Assembly (NCBI GenBank): GCA_016201105.1
Contig: JACQDN010000058.1
Coordinates: forward strand, 1-64,000
Length of the DNA stretch: 64,000 bases
Direction of reading: 5' to 3'
DNA from: Pseudomonadota bacterium
GTDB taxonomy: Bacteria > Pseudomonadota > Alphaproteobacteria > Micropepsales > Micropepsaceae
Shown: positions 1,500-42,684 of the stretch, in pieces
Layout of the letters: every line of letters starts with the position of its first letter
Position numbering within the stretch: position 1 is the first letter of the stretch
Notes under the pieces: model-generated
Told to the model about the DNA's origin: nothing
Seen by the model: only the letters and a program-made list of their open reading frames with translations
The model's database searches: none
Program-made: the position numbers and the translations under genes

Positions 1500-5684
<4,185 letters not shown>

Positions 5685-40828: not shown

Positions 40829-41161
40829 TCACTCATCGAGTTCTTCCTGGCGTTCTCGAAACCATTTCAGAACATCGTTGCGTGATCCGTTCTCCAAATG
40901 CGTCCAGTATGCATTGCGAATCGCCTTCCTCCGATCCCTTTTCCACCAAATTTCATGCACCGAAAGTATTGTCCATTTCGGGCGCGCTGTGTGCGTCAAT
41001 TGGTGAATCTCGATCTGAAACGAAATGGGAGCCCATTGAACGCTGCGCTGCCTGCGCCACTCCACGCCAGCTACCCGCCATTCGTCGCAGTCGCGGTCTT
41101 TGTTGGTTGCTGAAACAAGCAGCGCAAACAGGTTTTGGAATTTGCTGTCGCCGAGCCGCAT
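40829..41161 (-). CDS. Hypothetical protein downstream of DUF190
   Basis: A 110-aa frame on the minus strand, beginning 5 bp after the DUF190 stop and ending 2 bp from the rarA stop. It has even amino-acid use, many Trp/Arg residues and a charged tail (WFRERQEELDE). Nothing is recognised. It may be the last gene of the fluoride operon; the overlapping plus-strand frame looks like noise (Ser/Cys-rich). Confidence 0.5.
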   Translation of the reverse strand: MRLGDSKFQNLFALLVSATNKDRDCDEWRVAGVEWRRQRSVQWAPISFQIEIHQLTHTARPKWTILSVHEIWWKRDRRKAIRNAYWTHLENGSRNDVLKWFRERQEELDE

Positions 41162-41165
41162 GGCC

Positions 41166-41513
41166 TTATCCGGCCAAACCCGTATCAGCCCCGTAGCGGA
41201 GCACCTTGACCTTCTCCATGGTCACGAGACCGCTTCCCATCATGCTGTCGAGCGTGGGCAGGAAGGCGTCGATCTTTTCTTCGCTGTCCACAATCTCGAT
41301 GACGAGGGGCAAATCTTCGGAGAGCCGGAGAATCTTCGCGGTATGCAGGCGGCTCGAATGACCGAAACCCATCGGTCCGCGCAGCACGGTGGCGCCGGCG
41401 AGGTGCATCTCGCGCGCCTTGAGGACGACGGCTTCGTACAGAGGCTTTCCGTGAAACTTGTCCCCTTCACCGAGAAAGACGCGCAAAAGGACGGCGTCTG
41501 TGGGTACTTGCAT
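41166..41513 (-). CDS. DUF190 protein, often linked to CrcB
   Basis: A 115-aa soluble protein with a PII-like ferredoxin fold. Motifs: LLRVFLGEGDKFHGKPLYEA, LRGPMGFG and LPLVIEIVDSEEKIDAFLP. DUF190 genes are repeatedly found beside crcB. It starts 2 bp after the crcB stop. It probably modulates or assists fluoride export; the mechanism is not known. Confidence 0.88.
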   Translation of the reverse strand: MQVPTDAVLLRVFLGEGDKFHGKPLYEAVVLKAREMHLAGATVLRGPMGFGHSSRLHTAKILRLSEDLPLVIEIVDSEEKIDAFLPTLDSMMGSGLVTMEKVKVLRYGADTGLAG

Positions 41514-41996: not shown

Positions 41997-42466
41997 TCAC
42001 GGTTCTTCACCGGCGACCGCTTCCGCCTCGACAGTCTCCGGTTCGGCGGCGATGGCTTTGAAATCCGGCTGAAACCAGGTCTGCGCGATTAGTGTCGGAA
42101 TCACCGCGCTGCCGATCACGGCGGTCACGAGAATTGTATATTGCGCCTGATCGATGATGTGATTGGTCAGCCCGAACAACGCCGAGATTGTGCCGAAGGT
42201 CAGCCCCGTAGACATCACCGATCGACATGCTGGACCAGAAATGCTTCTTCACGATGCGCGGGTCGATCTCCGTTCCCGCCAGAAACGTCAAAAGAATTGC
42301 ACCGAACCCGGCGAGGAAGTTGACCCAATCGGTGATATGTAGGCCGATGAAATTGCCGGCAACGGCGCCGACCACGATCGCGATGAGCGCTACCGAGATC
42401 GCCACGCGGATGGATATGATGGATGCCAGAAGTGCGAGGCCCAGCCACAACGCCGATCCAAGCTAG
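41997..42466 (-). pseudogene. Remnant of a Kef/NhaP-type cation:proton antiporter
   Basis: Two pieces of one membrane transporter are joined at about 42215. The N-terminal piece (ISVALIAIVVGAVAGNFIG..., FLAGTEIDPRIVKKHFW) breaks after the second or third helix. The C-terminal piece (STGLTFGTISALFGL... to IAQTWFQPDF) is in another frame. The central membrane helices of a normal antiporter are missing, so this is an internal deletion plus frameshift. The true 5' end is unclear (a start near 42577 cannot be excluded). It sits directly behind the fluoride riboswitch, where fluoride-linked antiporters are known. Confidence 0.8.
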
Positions 42467-42579
42467 ACATTTGCCACAGTCGTCATCCCGTTCCCGCCTG
42501 TCGACAGATGGAGAAGCGGCTGGAAACGGCTCGCGGCAAAGCAGTCCGAAGACGGATTCCCACCGCAACATCGTCAAGC

Positions 42580-42650
42580 GGTAGGAGTCATCAGCCGTCT
42601 GGCTTATTGAGCTGTCGGGCGGTTAAAGGGGAACCCCATCCCCTGTTCTG
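42580..42650 (-). ncRNA. Fluoride riboswitch (crcB motif)
   Basis: Read on the minus strand from 42650. The 5' hairpin GGGGATGGGGTTCCCC (42644-42629) is followed by TTTAACCGCC. After a variable stem (gacagctcaataagccaga) comes the conserved 3' end CGGCTGATGACTCCTACC. These are the conserved blocks of the crcB-motif aptamer, including the ATGG..TTC loop, the AACCGCC pseudoknot partner and TGATGACTCCTAC. The aptamer starts a few bases after a promoter's predicted start point and controls the antiporter remnant, crcB and DUF190. Confidence 0.93.
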
Positions 42651-42655
42651 TAAGA

Positions 42656-42684
42656 ACGCTAAGCGACTCGTTTGAATGCGTCAA
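42656..42684 (-). promoter_or_regulatory. Promoter of the fluoride-riboswitch operon
   Basis: On the minus strand TTGACG (42684-42679), 17-bp spacer and TAGCGT (42661-42656). The -10 is weak, but the predicted start falls at about 42648, right where the riboswitch begins. Divergent rluC starts 19 bp away on the other side. Confidence 0.55.

Follow-up and report, generated by a model that had tools for sequence, protein, structure and literature searches.

What does a fluoride riboswitch control when crcB, its direct client at the same site in most relatives, starts 654 bp downstream? This question is raised by a minus-strand locus in the window, that is, the whole stretch of 64,000 nucleotides analysed here (Table 1). 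The answer we consider probable is that the riboswitch heads a fluoride-resistance operon in which the first gene is dead, and that a read-through transcript serves crcB and the adjoining DUF190 gene.

Table 1. Features of the fluoride riboswitch locus, in window coordinates and in order of transcription
Feature	Position	Strand	Evidence
Promoter of the riboswitch transcript, TTGACG-N17-TAGCGT	42656..42684	-	sequence; TTGAC conserved at syntenic loci
Fluoride riboswitch aptamer (RF01734)	42575..42652	-	cmscan 55.5 bits, E 1.2e-12
Aptamer 3′ strand GATGACTCCTACCGC, with pseudoknot ACTCC; also 5′ arm of the proposed anti-aptamer hairpin	42578..42592	-	pairing counts, 10 loci
GCGGTGGGAATCCGTC, 3′ arm of the proposed anti-aptamer hairpin (putative expression platform)	42551..42566	-	pairing, conservation
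Decayed CPA2-type cation:proton antiporter gene	41997..42486	-	PF00999; tblastn; DNA alignment with L045 and L046
crcB (Fluc fluoride channel), intact, 134 aa	41516..41920	-	PF02537 99 bits; NF010802 198.8 bits
DUF190 gene, intact, 115 aa, directly 3′ of crcB	41166..41513	-	PF02641 140.1 bits

The sequence-only reading had recognized a crcB-motif aptamer on the minus strand and suggested a covariance-model scan, and the scan bears it out. RF01734 is matched over the full model (positions 1-64), with a score above the gathering score of 34 bits, and this match is the only one in the 3.85 Mb genome. The aptamer pseudoknot GGGGU:ACUCC, between the P1 loop and the 3′ strand, has 5/5 pairs in 10/10 loci; being nearly invariant over these loci, the pairs give little covariation. 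By all sequence tests of class, the window element is a fluoride riboswitch of the ordinary class, and its aptamer would be expected to bind fluoride. The antiporter remnant, crcB and the DUF190 gene follow it on the same strand.

A promoter with a 17-bp spacer and a transcript start at the 5′ end of the aptamer had also been proposed, and the promoter is found as described. The −35 element TTGACG (42684-42679) is followed by a 17-nt spacer and the −10 element TAGCGT (42661-42656), which places the predicted +1 near 42649, five bases 5′ of helix P1. By itself the window promoter is at chance level (P 0.22), and a generic σ70 scan gave no promoter, TAGCGT falling under the scan's −10 threshold. 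Because that scan misses TAGCGT, we turned to conservation across loci. At 18/19 syntenic loci in related species, TTGAC recurs at a comparable distance from the aptamer, against a mean of 0.39 and a maximum of 4/19 in shuffles.

The distance of about 660 bp to crcB that had been reported agrees with the 654 bp between the aptamer end and the crcB ATG (41920), but this interval is not a plain gap: a decayed antiporter gene lies inside it. A 147-codon frame there matches PF00999 with 32.8 bits, and tblastn with the L046 protein recovers amino acids 10-101 and 333-405 in two different frames. Alignment to the intact orthologues at L045 and L046, two syntenic loci in relatives, reveals that codon 8 has become a TAG stop, that ~695 bp are missing internally at 42218/42217 and that the frame is shifted. 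The remnant ATG is at 42486, the TAG at 42465-42463 stands where relatives carry TGG, and the deletion itself puts the remnant out of frame. With the stop, the deletion and the frameshift, the remnant cannot encode the whole protein. A DNA search of 96 genomes found the same ~695-bp deletion in none of the relatives. As to family, the intact L045 orthologue scores 109.4 bits against TIGR00932, under that model's own cut-off of 238.3. Relative to L045, the remnant shows 21, 14 and 83 substitutions at first, second and third codon positions, a pattern close to that between the two intact genes. Since the third-position bias persists in the remnant, the decay is recent. Judged from these alignments, the gap is a recently decayed CPA2-type antiporter gene, the first client of the switch.

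The genes beyond the remnant are in good order. The window crcB exceeds the curated cut-offs of both PF02537 (32.9) and NCBIfam NF010802 (140) and encodes the only CrcB in the genome, and the crcB-DUF190 order is also found at relatives having this crcB type. Further 3′, a 110-aa frame at 40829-41161 (−) looks, on visual comparison, like small frames near other fluoride loci, in L045 and L035.

In the mechanism that we propose, transcription would start just upstream of the aptamer and the RNA would fold into the crcB-motif structure. Without fluoride, the aptamer 3′ strand GAUGACUCCUACCGC would pair with the downstream arm GCGGUGGGAAUCCGUC, the aptamer could not close, and the transcript would most likely end early. 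With fluoride, the pseudoknot would lock the strand and free the downstream arm, and transcription would go on. The aptamer and anti-aptamer folds should be mutually exclusive because the same strand supplies the pseudoknot ACUCC. The original first gene would have been the CPA2-type antiporter, recently lost in this lineage, and the read-through RNA would now serve crcB and DUF190.

Comparison of ten loci, including the window, is consistent with such a switch. The downstream arm has the consensus GCGG(C/U)(A/G)GGaguCCGUC and can pair with GAUGACUCCUACCGC. In the alternative 12-bp helix, 86.7% of cells pair in register, compared with 25-52% when the strands are slid; the pseudoknot reaches 100% in the same count. 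In the window hairpin itself, 11/12 bases pair (P 0.010). Covariation in the helix, limited to one pair and two cells over the ten loci, did not exceed that of shuffles, so the support for the helix comes from pairing in register and from conservation. The window leader as a whole does not fold better than shuffles (z −1.19), and its best candidate for an intrinsic U-tailed terminator is at P 0.51. The leaders of L045 and L046 have no such terminator. U-tailed terminators do follow the arm at L033b (P 0.000), at L044 (P 0.005) and at the more distant L042.

It is possible, if tentatively so, that the same switch governs the same clients through Rho-dependent termination or translation instead of an intrinsic terminator, a variant that does not exclude our main reading. 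No intrinsic terminator in the window rises above chance, and translational fluoride riboswitches exist (PMC13273304). In addition, at three sister loci of the same site (L029, L030 and L048), the ACUCC strand lies opposite the first gene's Shine-Dalgarno sequence instead and can sequester it. The window arm, however, stops ~65 nt short of the old start codon and overlaps no Shine-Dalgarno sequence; therefore transcriptional control is favoured here, and a purely translational switch would be left without a gene. Moreover, two sister loci that share the arm have clear terminators. Most likely, then, the window switch works at the level of transcription, and its control still reaches crcB-DUF190 across the dead gene.

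Other points count against our main reading. The read-out in the window was not seen directly, its terminator candidate being at chance level; polarity might arise from the ~500 nt of untranslated RNA; and a promoter-like TTGGCA-N17-TACCAA at 41979-41951 (−), ending 30 bp before the crcB ATG, could uncouple crcB. The riboswitch might be a relic that controlled the antiporter alone, with crcB-DUF190 transcribed from a separate promoter within or beyond the pseudogene. The long untranslated remnant between switch and crcB would suit this, as would the 8/12 consensus matches of the internal site, which equal those of the riboswitch promoter. Yet the internal site does not rise above chance (P 0.10), and in most relatives the switch found here has crcB itself as its direct client. 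The intact aptamer, promoter and anti-aptamer arm also fit continued selection, although recent decay alone could explain them as well. We consider a relic unlikely. Less probable again is that antiporter loss re-assigned the switch to crcB and that the ~500 nt of pseudogene RNA became an extended leader tuning crcB output, for example by Rho-dependent polarity. If true, this would be a natural riboswitch re-assignment within an operon through the death of its first gene.

It seems very improbable that the antiporter only looks broken through a fault of assembly or sequencing. The genome is a draft of 84 contigs, but both the nonsense change and, separately, the clean ~695-bp deletion would have to be artefacts, while their flanks and neighbour genes are intact. 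Nor does the genome hold any intact copy of this antiporter at E 1e-60; its other PF00999 gene lies elsewhere and does not match this antiporter at that threshold. A chance resemblance to the crcB motif can be dismissed, given that the cmscan E-value already refutes it computationally, related loci score 42.8-59 bits against RF01734, and aptamer and crcB share a strand.

The syntenic site in relatives places the window operon in context. Most loci are flanked upstream by an rluC-like gene on the opposite strand and downstream by rarA. L045 (G023) keeps promoter, riboswitch, antiporter, crcB and DUF190 all intact, and at L046 (G022) the riboswitch precedes an antiporter, after which no crcB was found. 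In most other relatives crcB, with or without DUF190, comes immediately after the switch. Rhizomicrobium electricum (L073) has the order rluC-crcB-DUF190-rarA, its rarA being 81% identical, which suggests that the window comes from Rhizomicrobium or a close relative. One promoter-aptamer unit is kept across a genus at the rluC-like/rarA site while its clients change among crcB-DUF190, another crcB, antiporter and antiporter-crcB-DUF190. In addition, the same aptamer strand would feed two kinds of expression platform at this site. The transition between translational and transcriptional control, and what becomes of a switch when its first gene dies, can therefore be tested in natural sequences from close relatives.

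The association between antiporter and riboswitch extends beyond this site. Among 96 family genomes, full antiporter copies occur in three (G022, G023 and G024), each behind a fluoride riboswitch; in a fourth, G002, the match is partial and lies at the end of a contig. Plasmid homologues with RF01734 upstream were found in Rhizobium jaguaris (80% identical), Klebsiella pneumoniae and Caulobacter sp. S6, the RF01734 match ending about 115-125 bp upstream of the antiporter in all three. Na+/H+ antiporters are the second commonest class of riboswitch-associated genes, after exporters (PMC11139923). We found no literature treating fluoride riboswitch, antiporter and DUF190 together. In Bradyrhizobium australiense, an antiporter behind a riboswitch-like match (L068, 5567-6749) carries a frameshift and an in-frame stop, which reflect either another instance of decay or an error in sequencing.

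Compared with the known arrangement of RF01734 upstream of crcB/Fluc, the window shares the aptamer consensus, the pseudoknot, the promoter-aptamer-exporter order and the DUF190 companion, but it has 654 bp with a dead gene before crcB and no recognizable terminator. Its remnant is an orthologue of the riboswitch-controlled Na+/H+ (CPA2-type) antiporters, which are intact behind their switches in L045, L046, R. jaguaris, Klebsiella and Caulobacter, whereas the window copy is broken. For this combination of intact ion switch and decayed gene, the nearest precedent we found is the manganese riboswitch of Bordetella pertussis, where switch and promoter likewise precede a decayed transporter gene (PMC8546581). 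There, the broken gene, BP3410, is the client described and was inactivated by a 30-bp duplication (PMC8546581); the window, in contrast, has large lesions and a second, intact client further down the operon. The locus adds a well-supported fluoride riboswitch at which switch, promoter and exporter outlasted the first gene of the operon.

Several further fluoride riboswitches came to light among the relatives. A draft genome, G061, has four, on contigs C241, C445, C551 and C968; its estimated contamination is 8%, so some of them may be foreign. L033 (G037:C357) carries two divergent fluoride riboswitches, at 4806-4883 (−) and 4949-5010 (+), 65 bp apart, one leading to crcB and the other to a stretch ended by the contig edge. 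From the translations, the fluoride riboswitch at L035 (2001-2063) precedes enolase, and that at L043 (2649-2709) precedes a NUDIX-like gene followed by enolase.
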